Assembly: GCA_016208345.1 (NCBI GenBank)
Contig: JACQYG010000331.1
Span: forward strand, 1 to 14,497
Direction: 5' to 3'
DNA length: 14,497 nt
Source: Chloroflexota bacterium
Lineage (GTDB): Bacteria > Chloroflexota > DTOL01 > JACQYG01
In this document: positions 2-7,560 of the stretch, piece by piece
Layout: each line of letters starts with the position of its first letter
Position numbering within the stretch: position 1 is the first letter of the stretch
Program-made: the position numbers and the translations under genes
Notes under the pieces: generated by a model
Seen by the model: only the letters and a program-made list of their open reading frames with translations
What the model was told of the DNA's origin: nothing
Databases searched by the model: none

Positions 2-1276
2 CTGGCCCTCTGTTGGCGCATCCACCGGGCCATCCAGGCCCGCCATGGACGCGCGGCGCGGGCGTTGCTCCCCGATAGCCCGGGTCGTCACACCCTGCAA
101 CGGGGGCTAGCCGCCCTCCTGCGGGATTTCCGACGCCTTTGCGAGAGCATTGCCCTCCTAGGGGAATGCACCCCGCGAGGGCTAGATGCGGTGTCCTCCC
201 TGGGTGAGCGACTGATGGTGCGCCTCTTCGCCGCAGCCCTGGAGGTGAACGGCGTGCCCGCCCGGCCGGTAGAGGCCAGCGCCTTCCTGGTCACCGATGA
301 CCACTACGGCGAGGCTATTCCTCTCTTAGAGGAGACCAGTACCCGATCCCGGGCCCTATTGGGGCCTCTTCTGGCGGAAAGGATAACGCCCGTGGTCACC
401 GGGTTCATTGGCACAACCGAAGATGGTGTCATCACTACCCTGGGTAGAGGTGGCAGCGACTACTCCGCGGCCATCCTGGGGCGTTGCCTGGGGTGCCGGG
501 AGATTTGGATCTGTACCGACGTCGATGGCGTCTTGACCGCCGATCCGCGCCTGGTGCCGGAAGCCGACACTATCCCGGAGCTGTCCTATGCCGAGGCGGC
601 GGAGCTCTCTTACTTCGGGGCCAAGGTGCTCCACCCTAAGACCATCCTGCCAGCACTGGAGGCGGGCATCCCCGTGCGCGTGGTCAATGCCTCCCACTCG
701 GAAGGCCCAGGGACCCTCATCGTTGCCCAAGAGCGGTCTACAGCGGTGACAGTTAAGGGAATCACGGCCATCCGGGGCCTCAGCCTGGTCACCGTGGAAG
801 GCCGAGGGATGGTAGGGGTGCCGGGCATCGCCGCCAGGGTCTTCGCTGCGGTGGCCCGGGAACGGATCAGCGTGCTGATGATCTCCCAGGGTTCTTCTGA
901 GCAGAGCATCTGCTTCGTCATCCCCCAGCCGGTGGCCGAACGGGCTCGAACGGCACTGGAGGCGGAATTCCAGCAGGAGTTGGCCCGGCGGGCCATTGAT
1001 CGGGTGACAATCCAATTGCCGGTGGCCATCGTCGCCGTGGTAGGGGCGGGGATGCGAAGGACACCGGGCATCGCCGCCAGGGTCTTCGGTGCCCTGGGAG
1101 CTAATGGCATCAATGTCATCTGTATTGCTCAGGGCTCCTCGGAGTGCAACGTTTCCCTGGTGGTAGACGAGCCAGAAATGCCTGCTGCGGTGCGGCACAT
1201 CCACCGTGCCTGCGGGCTCGGCCGGACCGCCAGTGAAGAGTGGAGGGTGGAACCAGCGCCTGAGGCGCGAGGGTAG
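2..1276 (+). CDS. lysC: Aspartate kinase, 5'-truncated by the window edge
   Basis: Phosphorylates L-aspartate to 4-phospho-aspartate, the first step toward threonine, methionine and lysine; cytoplasmic. The frame is open from base 2, so the N-terminal KFGG nucleotide-binding segment (roughly 40 residues by comparison with the family) lies upstream. The TTG at 65 is internal and is not a start. Visible motifs are SLGERL near 200-225, GRGGSDYSA near 443-470, TDVDGV near 515-530 and LSYFGAKVLHP near 605-640. Two C-terminal ACT regulatory domains follow, each with a GIAARVFxA..I.V..I.QGSSE pattern (about 770-960 and 1015-1180), as in feedback-controlled aspartokinases. The kinase order and ACT pair resemble the kinase half of E. 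coli ThrA, but a stop separates it from the dehydrogenase encoded 2 nt downstream. First visible gene of the threonine cluster. Which amino acid inhibits it cannot be read from the sequence. Confidence 0.95.
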   Translation: MALCWRIHRAIQARHGRAARALLPDSPGRHTLQRGLAALLRDFRRLCESIALLGECTPRGLDAVSSLGERLMVRLFAAALEVNGVPARPVEASAFLVTDDHYGEAIPLLEETSTRSRALLGPLLAERITPVVTGFIGTTEDGVITTLGRGGSDYSAAILGRCLGCREIWICTDVDGVLTADPRLVPEADTIPELSYAEAAELSYFGAKVLHPKTILPALEAGIPVRVVNASHSEGPGTLIVAQERSTAVTVKGITAIRGLSLVTVEGRGMVGVPGIAARVFAAVARERISVLMISQGSSEQSICFVIPQPVAERARTALEAEFQQELARRAIDRVTIQLPVAIVAVVGAGMRRTPGIAARVFGALGANGINVICIAQGSSECNVSLVVDEPEMPAAVRHIHRACGLGRTASEEWRVEPAPEARG

Positions 1277-1278
1277 CG

Positions 1279-2571
1279 ATGTCGGATGTGGTGCAGATCG
1301 GGCTACTAGGCCTGGGGGTGGTGGGGGGCCAGGTACATCGCCTCCTCACCGAGAAGGCGATGGTCATTGCCCAGCGGGGTGGCCGCGCCGTCACCGTGCG
1401 GCGGATACTGGTGCGGAATGCTGCCAAGCCCCGGGCGACGGGCGTAGAGCGGTCACTCATTACCACCGATGCCAGGGACATCCTGGACGACCCGGCCGTC
1501 GATGTGGTCATCGAACTCATCGGGGGGGAGCGACCGGCGGCAGATTACATACGACAGGCCCTCCAGGCCGGCAAGCACGTCATCACCGCCAACAAGGAGG
1601 TCATGGCCAAACAGGGTCCCCTGCTCCTGGCCTTGGCCCGGGAGCAAGGAGTGGGCCTTTACTATGAGGCCAGTGTGGGTGGGGGTATCCCCCTCATCGC
1701 CCCCTTCCGGCGCGACCTGGTGGCTAATCGGATCAGGTCCATCCGGGCGATCCTCAACGGTACCACCAATTACATCCTCACGCGTATGGCTAACGGGGGC
1801 GCGGAATTGGGCACCGCTCTGGCTGAGGCCCAGGCCGCCGGCTATGCCGAGGCTGACCCCGCCAAGGATCTGGACGGCATGGATGCCGCCTGTAAACTGG
1901 CGATCCTGGCTACTCTGGCCTACCATGCTCCGGTTACCTTAGACGTTGTGTATACCGAGGGAATCCGCGGCCTGGCCGCCAGGGACTTCCGCTATGCCCA
2001 AGAGATGGGATATGCCATCAAACTGTTGGCTATCGCTCAGGAGCAGGATGGAACCATCGAGGCTCGGGTGCACCCAGCCTTCTTGCCCGCTCACACCTTC
2101 CTGGCCCAAGTACATGGGGTGTACAATGCGGTGGTGGTGGAAGGGGATCTGACCGGCCCGGTCCTATTTTATGGGCAGGGGGCTGGGGCCACCCCCACCG
2201 CCAGCGCCGTGGTGGCCGACCTGATCGGGTTTCTAAAGAACATGGACCAGGAGGGTTACCGCGACCCGGGCTTTTTGGCCGAGGGAACTGTATCTATTCG
2301 TCCCATGAGCAAGGTACGCGCCCGCTATTACCTGCGGATGCCAGTGGAGGACCGCCCAGGCATCCTTGCGGAGATCGCTCGCATCCTGAGCGATGGGCAG
2401 ATCAGCATTTCTTCTCTCTTCCAGAGGCACATGGACCAAACCGCCAGGACCGCTGACGTCGTCCTCATGACCCAGCGCACCCAGGAGGAGGCCATGCAAC
2501 GGGCCCGGGCAGAGTTGTCCACACTGGCAGTGGGGCGAGAGAGCCCAGGCCTTATTCGGGTAGAGGAATAG
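1279..2571 (+). CDS. hom: Homoserine dehydrogenase with C-terminal ACT domain
   Basis: Reduces aspartate 4-semialdehyde to homoserine with NAD(P)H; cytoplasmic. The 430-residue product has the Rossmann GLGVVG motif (residues 11-16), ELIGG (79-83) and TANKE (103-107). The catalytic region has SVGGGIP (132-138), LNGTTNYI (159-166), then E191 and the DLDGMDAACK block (D202 and K206 fit the conserved Asp and Lys). A C-terminal ACT domain (about 335-425, core PVEDRPGILAEIARIL) makes this the long, feedback-regulated class found in Bacillus and Corynebacterium rather than the short ACT-less class. The ATG lies 2 nt after the lysC stop, with a weak GAGGG purine stretch before it, so translational coupling is likely. 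No frameshift or missing key residue is seen. Confidence 0.97.
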   Translation: MSDVVQIGLLGLGVVGGQVHRLLTEKAMVIAQRGGRAVTVRRILVRNAAKPRATGVERSLITTDARDILDDPAVDVVIELIGGERPAADYIRQALQAGKHVITANKEVMAKQGPLLLALAREQGVGLYYEASVGGGIPLIAPFRRDLVANRIRSIRAILNGTTNYILTRMANGGAELGTALAEAQAAGYAEADPAKDLDGMDAACKLAILATLAYHAPVTLDVVYTEGIRGLAARDFRYAQEMGYAIKLLAIAQEQDGTIEARVHPAFLPAHTFLAQVHGVYNAVVVEGDLTGPVLFYGQGAGATPTASAVVADLIGFLKNMDQEGYRDPGFLAEGTVSIRPMSKVRARYYLRMPVEDRPGILAEIARILSDGQISISSLFQRHMDQTARTADVVLMTQRTQEEAMQRARAELSTLAVGRESPGLIRVEE

Positions 2572-2644
2572 AAAGGAACCAAGAGGAAACCAAGTGGAAA
2601 GGCCGTCTTCCCATTTTCCTGCTTCCTGTTGGAGATTGGTGCCT

Positions 2645-3694
2645 ATGAAGACAGGTATCCTGGCCCGCTACCGCGAGCATCTTCCCGTCACCGACAGCAC
2701 TCCGCCTCTTTCGCTCGGCGAGGGCGACACGCCACTGGTGCGAGCAGAGCGACTGAGCGCCGTGATTGGGGCTGAGGTCTGGCTGAAGCTGGAGGGATGT
2801 AACCCGACGGGCTCCTTCAAGGACCGGGGGATGGTAGTGGCGGTGGCCAAGGCAATGGAGGCCGGGTCCCGGACAGTCATCTGCGCCTCCACCGGGAATA
2901 CCGCGGCCTCGGCCGCGGCCTACGCGGCGAAGGCAGGCCTCATGGCCATCGTCGTCGTCCCTGCCGGGAACATCGCTCTAGGGAAGTTGGCCCAGGCCAT
3001 CATCCACGGGGCCCGGGTGCTGGCCCTGCAGGGGAATTTCGACCAGGCTCTGGCCGTGGTTCAGGAGCTTGTAGCCCGGCATGCGGTGGCCCTGGTTAAC
3101 TCGGTGAACCCTGACCGCATCCAGGGACAGAAGACGGCGGCTTTCGAAGTCTGCGACCTCCTGGGAGAGGCTCCTGACATCCTCGCCATCCCTGTGGGGA
3201 ATGCGGGGAACATCACCGCCTACTGGCGAGGCTTCCAGCAGTACCATGCCGCCAGCCATATCCGCAGGCTCCCTCAGATGTGGGGTTTCCAGGCAGCGGG
3301 GGCAGCCCCCATCGTCCGGGGAAAACCGGTGGCGGAGCCTCAGACAGTAGCCACGGCCATCTGCATCGGGAATCCGGCTAGCTGGCACGGGGCCGTGGCT
3401 GCCCGGGATGAGTCGGGCGGCATCATCGAGGCGGTGAGCGACGAGGAGATCCTGTCCGCTCAGGGCTTCTTGGCCCGGGCCGAGGGGGTCTTCTGCGAGC
3501 TGGCCTCGGCCGCCTCAGTAGCGGGCATACGGAAGCTGGCCCGAGAGGGGCGGGTTCCGCCAGGGGTCTGTATCGTTTGCATCCTCACCGGGAGCGGTTT
3601 GAAGGATCCGGCGAGCGCGGTGGCGGGGGTCACGCCACCCCAGGCCGTCCCCGCGGAACTGGAGCGCGTGGAGAGGGAGTTAGGGTGGAGTTAG
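2645..3694 (+). CDS. thrC: Threonine synthase, short form without zinc ribbon
   Basis: PLP enzyme that converts O-phosphohomoserine to threonine and phosphate; cytoplasmic. From ATG 2645 the product is 349 residues, close to the Bacillus ThrC length, and begins as that family does (RYREHLPVTDSTPPLSLGEG). The PLP lysine is K59 in NPTGSFKDRGM; CASTGNTAASAAAYAAKAG follows, and the phosphate-cradle loop reads PVGNAGNITAYWRGF. An in-frame GTG at 2594 has a better Shine-Dalgarno (GAGGA, 6 nt away) and would add 17 residues; I prefer 2645 because the extra residues do not look like the family. The gene sits between hom and thrB and overlaps thrB by 10 nt, so it is the likely housekeeping threonine synthase. 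A second, clearly different ThrC paralogue starts at 5412. Confidence 0.95.
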   Translation: MKTGILARYREHLPVTDSTPPLSLGEGDTPLVRAERLSAVIGAEVWLKLEGCNPTGSFKDRGMVVAVAKAMEAGSRTVICASTGNTAASAAAYAAKAGLMAIVVVPAGNIALGKLAQAIIHGARVLALQGNFDQALAVVQELVARHAVALVNSVNPDRIQGQKTAAFEVCDLLGEAPDILAIPVGNAGNITAYWRGFQQYHAASHIRRLPQMWGFQAAGAAPIVRGKPVAEPQTVATAICIGNPASWHGAVAARDESGGIIEAVSDEEILSAQGFLARAEGVFCELASAASVAGIRKLAREGRVPPGVCIVCILTGSGLKDPASAVAGVTPPQAVPAELERVERELGWS

Positions 3695-4641
3695 GGAGAG
3701 CAACTATTTCCGACTCAAAAGTTATCGTGCGCGTCCCTGCCACTGCTGCCAACCTGGGACCGGGGTTCGATTGTTTGGGAATGGCATTGGGGCTGTACAA
3801 TGTCGTCACCGCCGAGGCCACCCCTTCCCAGCTCACGGTGCGCATTATCGGTGAGGGGGAGGATGCATTGCCCCGAGGGGCGGAGAACCAGGTCCTCCGG
3901 GCCATGCGGGCCGTCTTTCGCCGGGTTGGAAGGCGGCTAACCGGCCTGAGCCTGGAACTCCAGAATGCCATCCCCGTCGCCCGAGGCCTTGGCTCCAGCG
4001 CTGCGGCCACGGTGGCCGGGCTGGTGGCAGCTAACTCCCTCTGCGGCGAGGCCCTTTCCCGTGACCAGATCCTGGCCCTGGCCATACAACTGGAAGGGCA
4101 TCCCGACAACGTGGCTCCGGCCTTTTTAGGCGGCATGGTGGTCGTCGTCCAGGAGACGGGGCGGGCAATATATGCCCACGTGCCGGTCCCAGCAGGCCTC
4201 AAAGCCGCCCTCTTTGTCCCTGACTTCGCCATGCTCACGAAAGAGGCAAGACGGGTGCTCCCGCGCCGGGTGGAGCGGGCTGATGCCGTCTACAATATCG
4301 GCCGAGCAGCGCTCCTGGTGGCCGCCCTGACTCAAGGCCGACTGGAGTTGCTGGACGTAGCGACACGAGATCGACTCCACCAGCCCTACCGGGAGGCCCT
4401 CTTCCCGGCAATGCCACGGCTCTTTGGGGCAGCGCGGGAGGCGGGCGCCCTGGGGGTCTTCCTGAGCGGGGCGGGGTCAACCGTCCTGGCCCTTTGCCAG
4501 GAAAATGCCGAGGGAGTCACACAGGCCATGGCCACCGCAGCGCGGGAAGCCGGGATCGGAGGTCGGCTTCTGGTCATCCCACTGAGCCCCCAGGGGACCG
4601 AGTCCACCCTGGTCCGATCCAATACGACCGGACCGGCCTGA
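3685..4641 (+). CDS. thrB: Homoserine kinase (GHMP family)
   Basis: Phosphorylates homoserine to O-phosphohomoserine, the threonine synthase substrate; cytoplasmic. The frame is open back to 3577, but GTG 3685 gives the expected length (318 aa) and puts the conserved VRVPATAANLGPGFDCLGMA block near residues 16-35. A purine-rich GGAGTTAGG precedes it inside the end of thrC. Other GHMP motifs are the ATP loop PVARGLGSSAAA (residues 98-108), LEGHPDNVAPAFLGG (137-150) and the C-terminal FLSGAGST. The 10-nt overlap with thrC suggests coupled translation. Its product is the probable shared precursor of threonine and, if the ThrC-like enzyme at 5412 works as inferred, of homocysteine. I see no clear intrinsic terminator between its stop and the promoter at 4781. 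Confidence 0.96.
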   Translation: MELGRATISDSKVIVRVPATAANLGPGFDCLGMALGLYNVVTAEATPSQLTVRIIGEGEDALPRGAENQVLRAMRAVFRRVGRRLTGLSLELQNAIPVARGLGSSAAATVAGLVAANSLCGEALSRDQILALAIQLEGHPDNVAPAFLGGMVVVVQETGRAIYAHVPVPAGLKAALFVPDFAMLTKEARRVLPRRVERADAVYNIGRAALLVAALTQGRLELLDVATRDRLHQPYREALFPAMPRLFGAAREAGALGVFLSGAGSTVLALCQENAEGVTQAMATAAREAGIGGRLLVIPLSPQGTESTLVRSNTTGPA

Positions 4642-4780: not shown

Positions 4781-4809
4781 TTGACAAATCCCGCCATTTG
4801 TGTTAAATA
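4781..4809 (+). promoter_or_regulatory. Sigma-70-like promoter of the SAM-I/T-box leader
   Basis: A perfect -35 TTGACA at 4781-4786 is followed after 17 nt by TAAATA at 4804-4809, a 4/6 match to TATAAT. It lies in a locally AT-rich stretch about 25 nt upstream of the SAM-I aptamer, so transcription would start near 4815. This would make the region downstream a transcription unit separate from thrB. The 139 bp between the thrB stop and this promoter hold nothing I recognise. Confidence 0.75.
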
Positions 4810-4833: not shown

Positions 4834-4931
4834 TGCTCTTACAAAGAGGTGGAGGAGCAGGGCCGATGAGACCTGGCAATCAGGCGACGGACTATGGTGT
4901 CTACTCTGGCAGGCGTACGCTTGCGAGAGAA
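4834..4931 (+). promoter_or_regulatory. SAM-I (S-box) riboswitch aptamer
   Basis: The sequence follows the S-box order: P1 5' strand CTCTT (4836-4840), then AAGAGGTGGAGG, then GGCCGATGAGACC and TGGCAAT (4861-4880), then GGTGTCTACTCTGGCAGG (4896-4913, matching the usual GGTGCTAATTCCTGC), and P1 3' strand GAGAG (4925-4929). The S-box family binds S-adenosylmethionine and turns off methionine or sulfur genes by termination. GAGAG can pair either with the P1 CTCTT or with CTCTTC in the terminator 5' arm (4964-4969), which is the usual mutually exclusive switch. The element sits upstream of a T-box in the same leader. Identification is by recalled consensus; a covariance-model search was not run. 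Confidence 0.9.
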
Positions 4932-4960
4932 GAAGGAAAAACAGCGCTGTTATCCTGGCG

Positions 4961-4989
4961 AACCTCTTCCATGACCGAAGGGGTTTTTT
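4961..4989 (+). terminator. Intrinsic terminator of the SAM-I riboswitch
   Basis: AACCTCTTC (4961-4969) pairs with GAAGGGGTT (4977-4985) around a 7-nt loop (one G-T pair), followed directly by a T tract ending at 4989. It lies 30 nt after the aptamer P1 helix and shares the CTCTT sequence with the P1 5' strand, so it is the expected SAM-dependent off switch. Confidence 0.88.
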
Positions 4990-5014
4990 GTTACCCGAAA
5001 AGCACATCTTCAAA

Positions 5015-5390
5015 GGTTACGACGGGAAGAGTAAGTGGGCCAAAGTACCGGCCACAGAGAGCCGCAGTAGCTGGGAAGCGGCGCTGGGAAGGCCTACCGA
5101 AGATGATCCCCGAACCGCCCGCTGAAATGGGTTGGCTTCTTCTGGAGAAGAGACCGACTGCAGAGTAGGTGGGGCCGGAAGCCTTGCCTAAAGGCTATAC
5201 AGCCACCGTTATCGCAGGCTGGAGTATCGGAATTCAGTGATCGGTGCTGCTCAGTGGTCACTGTCTTCCCGTACTTACCGAGGTCGCCGTCGTGAGGCGG
5301 CGACGAAGCGGGGTGGTACCGCGAGGTCAACGCCTCTCGTCCCTGCCCGTGTCGAGGACTTCGACGCGGCTTGGGACGGGGGCGTTTTTT
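5015..5390 (+). promoter_or_regulatory. T-box leader, probably tRNA-Met responsive
   Basis: Complete T-box layout. The stem I base pairs GGTT (5015-5018) with AACC (5113-5116) and GGGA with TCCC. The S-turn is AGTA (5030-5033) opposite GAA (5099-5101). AGAGAG is at 5056-5061, with distal hairpin GCCGC/GCGGC (5061-5065/5078-5082). A stem III hairpin GTCGCC/GGCGAC (5283-5288/5299-5304) precedes the canonical GGTGGTACCGCG at 5312-5323. The nucleotides after GAA read GATGA, allowing GAT (Asp, 5102-5104) or ATG (Met, 5103-5105). ATG is favoured because it is followed by one purine and then the base stem, and because the antiterminator TGGT would pair with discriminator A73 (tRNA-Met) rather than G73 (tRNA-Asp). 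The SAM-I element upstream fits methionine. The T-box call is secure; the specifier reading is not. Confidence 0.9.
5331..5390 (+). terminator. T-box terminator before the ThrC-like gene
   Basis: CGCC (5331-5334) and CGTCCC (5338-5343) pair with GGGACG (5373-5378) and GGCG (5381-5384). The stem encloses a second hairpin (CGTGTCG/CGACGCG) and ends in six T residues at 5385-5390. The 5' arm overlaps the sequence that would pair with the T-box motif in the antiterminator, as in this class. Confidence 0.88.
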
Positions 5391-5411
5391 ATTCGGAGGA
5401 GGGGTGAGGGA

Positions 5412-6707
5412 ATGACCTATGTTAAGGCACTGCGCTGCCGGGAGTGCGGGCGAGAGTACCCTCAGGGGCCGACACACGTCTGCGAGTTCTGCTTCGGGCC
5501 CTTGGAGGTGGCTTATGACTACCAGGCCATCCAGCGGGACATCAGCCGGGAGGCTATCGCTGCCGGTCCAGGCAGCATCTGGCGATACCAGGCCCTCCTG
5601 CCCGTCCAACGGGCTTCCCAGGCCGACCTGGGCGCCGGCTGGACGCCGCTGATAAAGGCCAACAACCTGGCCAGGGCCCTGGGCTTACGGGAACTCTACC
5701 TCAAAAACGATTGCGTCAATCCCACCTACTCCTTCAAGGATCGGGTGGTGGCGGTGGCCACGGCCAAGGCGTTGGAGTTCGGCTTCGACACCCTGGCCTG
5801 CGCTTCCACGGGCAACCTGGCGGCGGCGGTCTCCGCCCAGGCGGCAAAGGCCGGGCTGCGGGCCTACGTCTTCATCCCTGCCGACCTGGAGCAGGGTAAG
5901 ATCGTTGGCGCGGCCGTCTATGGAGCCACCCTGGTGTCCGTTCAGGGAAATTACGACCAGGCCAACCGCCTGGCCAGCGAGGTGGCCGACCGCTACGGCT
6001 GGGCTTTCGTCAATATCAACCTGCGCCCCTACTATGCCGAGGGCTCCAAGACCCTGGCCTTTGAGGTGGCCGAACAGCTGGGCTGGCGGGTCCCCGACCA
6101 CGTGGTGGTCCCCATCGCCTCCGGATCGCTGTTCACCAAGATCTGGAAGGGTTGGAACGAGCTGGCCGAAGTGGGCCTCCTCGATGGCCAACGACCCCGA
6201 ATGACCGGTGCACAGGCGGCGGGCTGCTCGCCGGTGGCCGCCGCCTTCGCTACCGGGAGCTGGGACATCCGACCGGTGAAGCCCTGGAGCATCGCCAAAT
6301 CGCTGGCCATAGGCAACCCGGCCGATGGCCACTATGCCCTGAAGGTGGCTCGCGAATCGGGCGGTTACATCGAGATGGTCCAGGAGCAGGAGATCGCCCA
6401 GGGGGTTGCCCTCCTGGCCCGCACCGAGGGTCTCTTCGCCGAGACAGCCGCGGGCGTCACCGTGGCGGCCCTCCAGCAACTGGCTACCCGGGGGAAGATC
6501 GGCTGCGACGAGGTGACCGTGGCCTACATCACTGGCAACGGCCTGAAGACCCAGGAGGCGATAGCGGAGGCCCTGGCCCCCGCCCTGGTCGTATCGCCCA
6601 CCCTGACCTCCTTCGAGCAGGCCCTGGCCAGGCAGATACCTCCCTCGGACCGAAGTCGCGAGGCAGGGGCTAAAACTCACACACGAAGGGAGAGTTTCCA
6701 GAAATGA
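5412..6707 (+). CDS. thrC: Threonine-synthase-like PLP enzyme with N-terminal zinc ribbon
   Basis: Fold-type II PLP enzyme of the ThrC family, 431 residues. ATG 5412 has GGAGGAGGGG just upstream; the longer frame from 5244 lies inside the T-box and is not used. An N-terminal zinc ribbon has C9, C12, C24 and C27. The PLP lysine is K109 in NPTYSFKDRV, followed by CASTGNLAAA. The phosphate loop reads PIASGSLFTKIWKG (near 234-247) instead of the PVGNAGN of the ThrC at 2645. From memory this zinc-ribbon/ASGSL form resembles the threonine synthase annotated in cyanobacteria. It is translationally coupled to a CysO-like sulfur carrier and sits behind SAM-I and T-box switches. Annotation by similarity is threonine synthase; the regulation and partner make homocysteine formation from O-phosphohomoserine a real alternative, which is inferred. 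The last ~25 residues look unstructured. Confidence 0.92.
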   Translation: MTYVKALRCRECGREYPQGPTHVCEFCFGPLEVAYDYQAIQRDISREAIAAGPGSIWRYQALLPVQRASQADLGAGWTPLIKANNLARALGLRELYLKNDCVNPTYSFKDRVVAVATAKALEFGFDTLACASTGNLAAAVSAQAAKAGLRAYVFIPADLEQGKIVGAAVYGATLVSVQGNYDQANRLASEVADRYGWAFVNINLRPYYAEGSKTLAFEVAEQLGWRVPDHVVVPIASGSLFTKIWKGWNELAEVGLLDGQRPRMTGAQAAGCSPVAAAFATGSWDIRPVKPWSIAKSLAIGNPADGHYALKVARESGGYIEMVQEQEIAQGVALLARTEGLFAETAAGVTVAALQQLATRGKIGCDEVTVAYITGNGLKTQEAIAEALAPALVVSPTLTSFEQALARQIPPSDRSREAGAKTHTRRESFQK

Positions 6708-6979
6708 GCAGCATCGTGCGCATCCCCACCCCGCTCAGGAAGCTGACGTCGGGGGCACGGGAGATCAGCGTCAACAGTGAGACCGTCGGCGCCTGCATCG
6801 CTCAGTTGGAGGCGCGGTTCCCCGGCCTGGGCGAGCGCCTCTGCGACGAGCGGGGTGAGCTGCGTCGCTTCATCAACGTCTATGTCAACGGCGAGGATGT
6901 GCGCTTCCTGGCCGGGCTGGCTACGCCGCTCTGCCCTGGCGATGAGGTCTACATCGTTCCGGCGATGGCTGGAGGGTAG
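6704..6979 (+). CDS. CysO/MoaD/ThiS-like sulfur-carrier protein
   Basis: Small ubiquitin-like protein (91 aa) ending in AMAGG, the exposed Gly-Gly that this family adenylates and converts to a thiocarboxylate to donate sulfur. The pattern IPTPLR, then LE.RFPGLGERL, RRFINVYVNGEDVRF, and IVPAMAGG matches my recollection of Mycobacterium tuberculosis CysO more closely than MoaD or ThiS; CysO gives sulfur to a fold-type II PLP enzyme (CysM) to make cysteine. Here its partner is the ThrC-like enzyme: the ATG overlaps the preceding stop (ATGA, 4-nt overlap), with AAGGGAGAG upstream, so the two are probably made together. No E1-like activating enzyme (MoeB/ThiF type) and no Mec-type JAMM protease is in the window; they would have to be elsewhere. 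Membership in the family is firm, the pathway is inferred. Confidence 0.92.
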   Translation: MSSIVRIPTPLRKLTSGAREISVNSETVGACIAQLEARFPGLGERLCDERGELRRFINVYVNGEDVRFLAGLATPLCPGDEVYIVPAMAGG

Positions 6980-7103: not shown

Positions 7104-7351
7104 GATGGCAATTGAAAACCGGCGATGACGGGGAATAGTAGAGAGCGCGTGCCCCTTCCAGAGAGCTGGCCGTGATGGTGTGAGCCAGCAGGGAGACGCC
7201 CTTGAACTCGCCTCTGAGCCATTGGGTCGAACGGGGAGGCTCGGAAACGCGCCCCCAGCCAGTAGACCTGGTCGGCTGGCACCCGATACAGTGCTCAAGT
7301 GGATTGCACTGGAGGGCTCCAAGTGTAGAGAGCCCACAGGCGGACAAAGCT

Positions 7352-7457
7352 CCCGTCCCCCTTCTGGTCGCTCGAAGGTGCCACCTATCTAGCTTGCCAG
7401 ACCCGCCGCGGGTCACTGGCTAAAGGGTGTCTCGTTAGACCAGGGGACGGGGTTTTT
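7352..7457 (+). terminator. Extra internal terminator within the Leu T-box leader
   Basis: CCCGTCCCC (7352-7360) pairs perfectly with GGGGACGGG (7443-7451), followed by G and five T residues (7453-7457), then GTTTT. The loop of about 80 nt contains its own strong hairpin (GCCAGACCCG/CGGGTcaCTGGC, about 7395-7419). The 5' arm context AAAGCTCCCGTCCC (7346-7359) differs by one base from AAAGCTCTCGTCCC in the T-box terminator (7525-7538), as if the expression platform had been duplicated. Confidence 0.65.
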
Positions 7458-7524
7458 GTTTTCGTGCCAACGCGCTGATTCGCCTGAAGGCACGGTGCAG
7501 TCAATTAGGGTGGTACCGCGGGTT

Positions 7525-7560
7525 AAAGCTCTCGTCCCTTATTGGGACGAGAGCTTTGTT
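7525..7560 (+). terminator. T-box terminator, perfect 14-bp stem
   Basis: AAAGCTCTCGTCCC (7525-7538) and GGGACGAGAGCTTT (7544-7557) form a perfect 14-bp stem with loop TTATT, followed by a T-rich stretch. It directly follows the T-box motif and contains the CTCGTCCC segment typical of T-box terminators. Confidence 0.93.

Follow-up and report, generated by a model that had tools for sequence, protein, structure and literature searches.

A MetM/MetO-type gene pair, probably encoding a homocysteine synthase and its sulfur carrier, lies behind a SAM-I-like aptamer and a predicted methionine T-box in a Chloroflexota genome

Results

A ThrC-family enzyme and a sulfur carrier form a candidate homocysteine synthase

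A stretch of 14,497 nucleotides from a Chloroflexota bacterium (hereafter the window; contig JACQYG010000331.1 of assembly GCA_016208345.1, forward strand) carries, at positions 5412-6979, a gene for a second enzyme of the threonine synthase (ThrC) family, overlapped by a gene for a small sulfur carrier. We conclude that the two are very probably a MetM/MetO pair, with MetM, as judged from its sequence, acting as a homocysteine synthase. The MetM/MetO route itself has already been published (2024, Streptomyces) and the pair described here is not new in kind; the novelty of mechanism implied by the initial annotation of the window does not hold, as the excerpted text of a paper citing that work makes clear (PMC12172450). 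The two genes are:

5412..6707, + strand: MetM-type enzyme, 431 amino acids, PALP family, with a zinc ribbon, an ASGS loop and the pocket motif N-x-N-x-R-P-(Y/F)-Y
6704..6979, + strand: MetO-type carrier, 91 amino acids, matching PF02597 (ThiS family) at 60.3 bits and ending in PAMAGG

In the proposed route, the homoserine kinase ThrB would make O-phosphohomoserine (OPHS), while an E1-type enzyme of the MoeB/ThiF kind would adenylate the Gly-Gly end of MetO, which would then become a thiocarboxylate. MetM, a pyridoxal phosphate (PLP) enzyme, would eliminate phosphate from OPHS and add the carrier sulfur to yield homocysteine, to be methylated to methionine. The leader of the pair is predicted to contain two terminators in series, one behind an aptamer resembling the S-adenosylmethionine (SAM) riboswitch SAM-I and one behind a T-box reading tRNA-Met, so that expression would require a low SAM signal together with a low level of charged tRNA-Met. 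The initial annotation had proposed the same reaction between OPHS and a carrier thiocarboxylate, and the predictions such a reaction would make at the sequence level (on clade, linkage, control, E1 and competing routes) held in the analyses below.

The window is contig C291 of an assembly of 2.10 Mb that is 74% complete (G000), from a class represented by two genomes in the collection used. It was compared with a second genome of the same genus (G001, 84% complete) and with a same-genus copy of the window locus (L012). Among named relatives, the nearest by the enzyme (97%) is an African mine assembly deposited as Ktedonobacter racemifer FI88_62_8; most of the following matches come from Chloroflexota. 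Our sample of MetM proteins comprises 82 sequences (80 related loci, the window and Nonomuraea), and the genome survey covers 41 genomes that all encode the enzyme and were picked for its presence (G000 and G001, plus 39 traced from as many of the 80 loci); completeness figures cover G000 and G001, and 14 control genomes are the sole yardstick for the survey.

The enzyme belongs to a clade of its own with an altered phosphate pocket

A tree was built from 87 proteins: 56 MetM out of the 82, 30 canonical threonine synthases (hereafter ThrC1) and one third paralogue, with Nonomuraea and cyanobacterial homologues standing in for the Streptomyces albulus MetM. A single branch, with support of 100/99 and one label change, sets all 56 MetM apart from the rest, and a carrier gene was seen beside 55 of them. 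This clade takes in cyanobacterial and actinomycete homologues and lies apart from ThrC, while the canonical thrC1 of the window groups with the 29 other ThrC1 in a clade of their own. Nonomuraea metM, which has metO next to it, encodes a protein 55% identical to the window enzyme, and cyanobacterial homologues other than that of Microcystis are 59-62% identical to it; the similar gene pair that the initial annotation had mentioned for cyanobacteria is indeed present among the related loci.

Two further features set the clade apart. The N-terminal zinc ribbon (C-x2-C...C-x2-C), which had been noted in the window enzyme and is evident in its sequence, occurs in 82/82 MetM and in none of the 30 ThrC1, even when upstream frames are included. 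The phosphate loop reads PIASGSLF in the window enzyme versus PVGNAGN in the canonical protein, a difference also noticed earlier and upheld by alignment, and the PIASGSLF-type loop is a mark of the whole clade (exact ASGS in 78/82). In the alignment columns of the 82 MetM and 30 ThrC1, the motif N-[IV]-N-x-R-P-[YF]-Y of all MetM replaces the N-S-x-N-x-x-R that every ThrC1 carries together with PVGNAGN. Specifically, N203, R205 and Y208 are found in 82/82 MetM where S, N and R stand in 30/30 ThrC1, and S237 in 80/82 MetM where all ThrC1 have N, and N185 and K243 occur in every MetM. By alignment, these columns correspond to Asn154, Ser155, Arg160 and Asn188 of the solved chain 1uim_A, which we take to be a Thermus-type ThrC and in which these four residues presumably contact the substrate phosphate. 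The clade retains SFKDR, the motif with the PLP lysine of the ThrC fold. Since the phosphate-contact columns are replaced and SFKDR is kept, the MetM pocket appears, from these alignments, to have been rebuilt around an unchanged PLP-lysine motif. A plain duplicate of ThrC was rejected on the separate clade and the changed pocket, and cysteate synthase on its model (TIGR03844), which gives 81.8 bits against a cut-off of 324.9.

The genome also encodes a third ThrC-like paralogue (L009:106-1359, G000:C17) of 417 amino acids with an SVGDG loop, a zinc ribbon and a long branch in the tree; it has no match in G001 at E<=1e-60. It is followed by an open frame (L009:1356-2588) with intein-splicing and DUF559 matches whose flanks look DNA-methyltransferase-like by eye, perhaps an intein.

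Carrier linkage and predicted activation

The initial annotation had also described an overlapping Gly-Gly carrier, and the call is sound: the carrier ATG overlaps the TGA stop of the enzyme gene as ATGA, an arrangement seen again in a Nitrospirota locus, and the boundaries given for the pair are exact. The gene-neighbour survey that it called for found a same-strand carrier frame downstream of metM in 79/80 loci, in each case ending no farther than 2.1 kb from the metM stop, and in 74/80 no farther than 750 bases from it; in the remaining locus only 410 bases of sequence follow metM. Among solved structures, 3dwg_C (E 1.3e-24), presumably Mycobacterium tuberculosis CysO, is the closest to the window carrier, which is 51% identical to that of Nonomuraea. 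Among the best 120 carrier homologues listed, whose linkage to metM is unchecked, 81 end exactly in Gly-Gly, 34 have one to six extra residues after it and 5 show neither, which suggests that some carriers may be trimmed. A role as MoaD in molybdopterin synthesis was rejected: the NCBIfam SAMP1 and MoaD_arch scores fall below cut-off and the linkage is to metM.

Genes of the ThiF family lie within the fetched stretch of 32/80 loci, nearly all of them from Zetaproteobacteria; L022 is the only case among the Chloroflexota-like loci. Mariprofundus erugo (L074) has the order metM, metO, NIL-domain gene, cysK/M, ThiF, and a Nitrospirota locus (L056) the order cysK/M, ThiF, metM, metO, ThiF, JAB peptidase. 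The free-standing NIL-domain protein of M. erugo (L074:6641-6886), between metO and cysK/M, is a possible methionine sensor or partner.

G000 as a whole has one ThiF match, a carrier domain fused to MoeB (L004:1177-2280), which lies next to the cysK/M-type gene, away from the window pair. Over 87 residues, the carrier domain of the fusion and MetO are 46% identical. As the sole match in the genome, this fusion is the enzyme that we infer to activate MetO. The Gly-Gly of the fusion is internal, with no free C-terminus unless the protein is cleaved; Gly-Gly precedes the MoeB part in 119 of the best 120 fusion homologues listed (its own protein included), mostly at the same distance.

Other homocysteine routes in the genomes

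We scored four markers of other routes to homocysteine: metA (PF04204), metX (TIGR01392, full-length at E<1e-30), enzymes of PF01053 (E<=1e-40) and HcyBio (PF01837). No metX match attained TIGR01392's own cut-off in any of the 41 genomes or the controls, and metX was therefore scored by E-value. On this basis, full-length metX was found in 5/41 MetM genomes (one of them weak, E 3e-31) and metA in 2/41, and both were missing in 34/41. A PF01053 enzyme was present in 11/41 MetM genomes and in 13/14 controls. HcyBio matches were confined to 6/41, all cyanobacteria, with none in G000, G001 or 33 others. All four markers were missing in 26/41. The presence of MetM together with the lack of other routes is an association, not proof, because the genomes were chosen by presence of the enzyme, with no comparison group lacking MetM. 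At least two ThrC-like genes (E<=1e-30) are found in 39/41 genomes and a close ThrC1 (E<=1e-100) in 35/41, so that threonine is usually covered by a separate gene.

For G000 itself, the check proposed in the initial annotation came out mostly as expected: there is no PF04204 metA, full-length TIGR01392 metX or HcyBio match and there is one E1-type ThiF, but one gene of the cystathionine gamma-synthase/gamma-lyase (CGS/CGL) type is present. G001 likewise has no PF04204 and no full-length TIGR01392 match. On the three absences we set aside a conventional or HcyA-type route in G000, and no complete conventional pathway emerged, with two reservations, the 74% completeness and the CGS/CGL-type gene beside a cystathionine beta-synthase gene. 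G000 and G001 each have one full-length PF01053 enzyme. That of G000 is encoded by a gene overlapping the cystathionine beta-synthase gene (560.2 bits, cut-off 510.25), a pairing that fits reverse transsulfuration, and no second full-length PF01053 enzyme for a beta-lyase step was found in the genome. The stretch in question (L001:98-4000, G000:C1) contains genes for a membrane protein (PF03601), the CGS/CGL-type enzyme and the cystathionine beta-synthase, and its GC content of 0.50, against 0.62 for the window, suggests horizontal acquisition.

A leader with two RNA elements in series

A stretch of 770 bases separates the end of thrB (4641) from the enzyme gene. Methionine control, suspected in the initial annotation, can now be specified as a SAM-I-like aptamer, a terminator, a T-box with an AUG specifier and a second terminator, in this order before metM, with aptamer and T-box both recurring in G001:

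4781..4808, + strand: promoter-like TTGACA ... TTAAAT, read by eye just 5' of the leader, identical in G001 and not reported by the consensus scan
4834..4934, + strand: SAM-I-like aptamer, divergent; RF00162, 37.9 bits, E 2.7e-6
4960..4986, + strand: intrinsic terminator 1, a 10-pair stem and T run, -11.9 kcal/mol, between aptamer and T-box
5010..5347, + strand: T-box leader; RF00230, 69.1 bits, E 3.4e-14, full model 1-219
5103..5105, + strand: specifier AUG (Met), GAA-G-AUG-A in the specifier loop, read from the Rfam alignment
5329..5386, + strand: strong terminator 2, of the T-box, fold of -41.4 kcal/mol followed by a U run

In the aptamer, 27/33 model pairs are standard and the core GCAA and GGUG of P3 are kept; by eye, P1 could also form five contiguous pairs in a shifted register (CUCUU/GAGAG). 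The same GAGAG can also pair with the 5' half of terminator 1, at a fold energy of -9.2 kcal/mol versus -11.9 for the terminator, and in these modelled folds the alternative pairing matches the way an ordinary expression platform is arranged. The scan for terminator 1 is not above chance (3 sites found versus 2.7 expected; fold z of -0.54 for 4930-5000), and the fold z for 5305-5405 is -2.34. Besides stem I, specifier and terminator, the T-box contains the motif GGTGGTACCGCG. Between G000 and G001 the leader differs by six substitutions in 770 aligned bases, one of them in the terminator 2 stem, and by a 46-base insertion in aptamer P3 of G001.

Scans of 42 of 81 loci found a SAM riboswitch above gathering score directly upstream of metM in 20/42 (6/15, 9/14 and 5/13 by batch), Nonomuraea included, and a 21st lies ~1.1 kb upstream of metM in L065; the five cyanobacteria scanned all lack one before metM. 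In a search of the 80 loci and the window (81 sequences in all, some of them with <1.2 kb upstream), the T-box core pattern precedes metM only in the window and in L012, and Rfam scans of the 42 loci found no T-box before metM at a gathering-score threshold that also misses the window's own.

We give about even chances to the idea that a two-input RNA gate, with a SAM side and a tRNA-Met side, governs thiocarboxylate-dependent homocysteine synthesis in this Chloroflexota genus. A minor variant, in which the lost J1/2 guanine reflects a shifted ligand or affinity of the aptamer, is unlikely; SAM itself is nevertheless a putative ligand, given that SAM-I variants with altered J1/2 and P3 loop are described as sensing spermidine in the excerpted text of PMC10853860. 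Methionine T-boxes are reported from Lactobacillus and Staphylococcus (PMC3771891; PMC3766115; PMC2494555, as excerpted), and the portion of the 2008 survey at hand lists Chloroflexi T-boxes at the ile tRNA ligase and trp genes of two Dehalococcoides genomes (PMC2494555). Mixed leaders as such are known, since a 2025 survey of contiguous riboswitches includes, in the text available, combinations of T-box and SAM elements on a thiamine operon (PMC12452182). No T-box plus SAM leader on metM was found in the literature searched, outside of which most subscription papers fall; the stacked leader on metM is apparently unreported and belongs to one small lineage.

Other regulatory elements and neighbouring genes

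Six other T-boxes of G000 have specifiers read as CUC, UGG, GUC, ACC, AUC and CCG, some of them less sure as loop length varies; those at L096, L101, L103, L105 and L107 read UGG, GUC, ACC, AUC and CCG. A tRNA gene follows closely on the CCG T-box, and the ACC T-box in turn comes just behind a tRNA gene. A second T-box within the window (7116-7542; 104.3 bits, above gathering score) has a specifier read as CUC (Leu). On its 3' side come an open frame of 60-65 codons and then secG, with no obvious amino-acid gene; the frame has a 6-base indel in the same-genus copy and, by eye, stays open there. Elsewhere, L110:1283-7051 is a salvage and SAM operon, with a 73.7-bit SAM riboswitch followed by mtnA and by genes for a putative short methionine synthase, a PfkB kinase, a GNAT-like protein (so labelled by eye) and SAM synthetase; the methionine synthase label (L110:2760-3800) is a guess from a weak Pfam match (E 0.017) with no solved relative.

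Upstream of the leader, the window encodes an aspartate-family operon in which hom, thrC and thrB follow one another, and the initial annotation was correct in placing a standard thrC beside thrB:

2..1276, + strand: aspartate kinase, 5' end cut by the window end; NCBIfam aspartate kinase models; heads the aspartate-family operon
1279..2571, + strand: homoserine dehydrogenase hom; NF004976, 505.7 bits, cut-off 205
2642..3694, + strand: canonical threonine synthase thrC1; TIGR00260, 305.9 bits, cut-off 167.1; PVGNAGN loop, no zinc ribbon
3697..4641, + strand: homoserine kinase thrB, the presumed supplier of OPHS; TIGR00191, 280.2 bits, cut-off 168.25

An alternative upstream start of thrC1 is possible (GTG 2594), and the protein read from there still lacks the ribbon.

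Discussion

Evidence against the assignment and alternative explanations

Several observations weigh against a MetM/MetO pair under dual methionine control. The function assigned to the window MetM is a prediction from sequence. In the excerpts of PMC12172450, the Microcystis homologue is reported to have made threonine and deaminated threonine in vitro, and the authors question whether its cellular role is fully that of MetM. NCBIfam threonine synthase models match the window enzyme (NF006050, 303.4 bits against 303; TIGR00260, 293.8 against 167.1); these models fail to separate MetM from ThrC. No ThiF gene lies near metM in the fetched stretches of the window or of most Chloroflexota loci. 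With G000 74% complete, its absences are weak evidence, and it has the CGS/CGL-type gene mentioned above (524.4 bits, cut-off 513). All 41 surveyed genomes encode MetM; metX or metA is also present in 7/41 and HcyBio in six cyanobacteria, and MetM is therefore not always the sole route. Regarding the leader, the aptamer falls below the RF00162 gathering score of 44.4 (30.4 bits for the G001 copy), its near-invariant J1/2 G is an A, P1 is weak (5/8 pairs in the Rfam register), and the T-box is below the RF00230 gathering score of 93.

The family models and the Microcystis activities would both be explained if the enzyme were a second threonine synthase or a threonine deaminase, with the carrier serving some other thiolation (PMC12172450, as excerpted, reports both activities). 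We regard this as decidedly improbable: a canonical ThrC already stands beside thrB, most of the surveyed genomes have a close ThrC1, the ThrC residues presumed to contact the phosphate (Ser, Arg and Asn) are replaced, the carrier is linked to the enzyme at nearly every locus, and the leader appears to read Met while another T-box of G000 may read Thr.

It is less probable still that the enzyme makes homocysteine with free sulfide, the carrier being a helper and not an obligatory donor. Free sulfide is accepted by many PLP enzymes of beta/gamma-replacement, and in the Microcystis study a trial with Na2S gave a peak that was not identified (PMC12172450, in the text available). Against such a role stand the near-universal carrier linkage, the stop/start overlap in the window and in a Nitrospirota locus, and the ThiF and JAB neighbours in other phyla.

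Finally, that homocysteine is a product of the contig C1 enzyme of cystathionine gamma-synthase type, perhaps made in a plant-like manner from OPHS and with the MetM pair as an accessory, is highly implausible even though G000 and G001 each have one such full-length PF01053 enzyme and that of G000 scores above the cystathionine gamma-synthase cut-off, as its gene has the overlapping arrangement of reverse transsulfuration, neither a second PF01053 enzyme for the beta-lyase step nor an acyltransferase was found, and the local GC content suggests acquisition.

Implications

With MetM as a probable homocysteine synthase, the annotation of the clade matters: its proteins, where named by their source, are listed as threonine synthase, and methionine auxotrophy may be wrongly predicted as a result. 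The marks that separate MetM from ThrC in this sample are the ASGS loop, N-x-N-x-R-P-[YF]-Y and the zinc ribbon. In the survey, MetM/MetO-type pairs turn up in Chloroflexota, Cyanobacteriota, Nitrospirota, Nitrospinota, Myxococcota, Pseudomonadota (Zetaproteobacteria) and one actinomycete, and the neighbouring ThiF and JAB genes are candidates for activating and trimming the carrier. The metM leader, with its SAM-like aptamer stacked on a tRNA-Met T-box, lends itself naturally to the study of how RNA may bring two signals to bear on a single amino acid.

Comparison with known systems

Sulfur delivery by a carrier to a PLP enzyme has several precedents. In the CysM/CysO system of Mycobacterium tuberculosis, a PLP enzyme uses a Gly-Gly carrier thiocarboxylate to convert O-phosphoserine to cysteine. 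The window carrier has its best solved relative in 3dwg_C, presumably CysO, but the proposed product here is homocysteine, not cysteine, and G000 has a separate cysK/M-type gene with the carrier-MoeB fusion beside it. The HcyS-dependent MetY of Wolinella succinogenes makes homocysteine from a carrier thiocarboxylate and O-acetylhomoserine, whereas no metX or metA was found in G000. The HcyA-type route (PF01837, HcyBio) is likewise an alternative to the acyl-homoserine routes, but belongs to a different Pfam family.

The closest known system is the MetM/MetO pair of Streptomyces (Hasebe et al. 2024, doi 10.1128/aem.01247-24). There, metO reportedly adjoins metM and MetO is said to be the thiocarboxylate donor. 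According to the excerpted text of the citing paper, Streptomyces MetM converts OPHS to homocysteine, S. albulus has a SAM riboswitch upstream of metM and a carrier named metO, and MetM homologues occur in cyanobacteria (PMC12172450). The same text describes the Microcystis aeruginosa ThrC as 51.6% identical to S. albulus MetM, with a metO-like carrier beside thrC, a gene pair of the same kind as in the window; it differs from the window in having, by the authors' account, no SAM riboswitch and in their stress on threonine deamination (PMC12172450). The window shares with the Streptomyces system, as excerpted, a ThrC-family enzyme with a sulfur carrier, OPHS as the likely substrate and a SAM-type element upstream (in S. 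albulus), and departs from it in a leader that adds a tRNA-Met T-box to a divergent SAM-like aptamer and in its host, a member of the Chloroflexota from a class with two sampled genomes.

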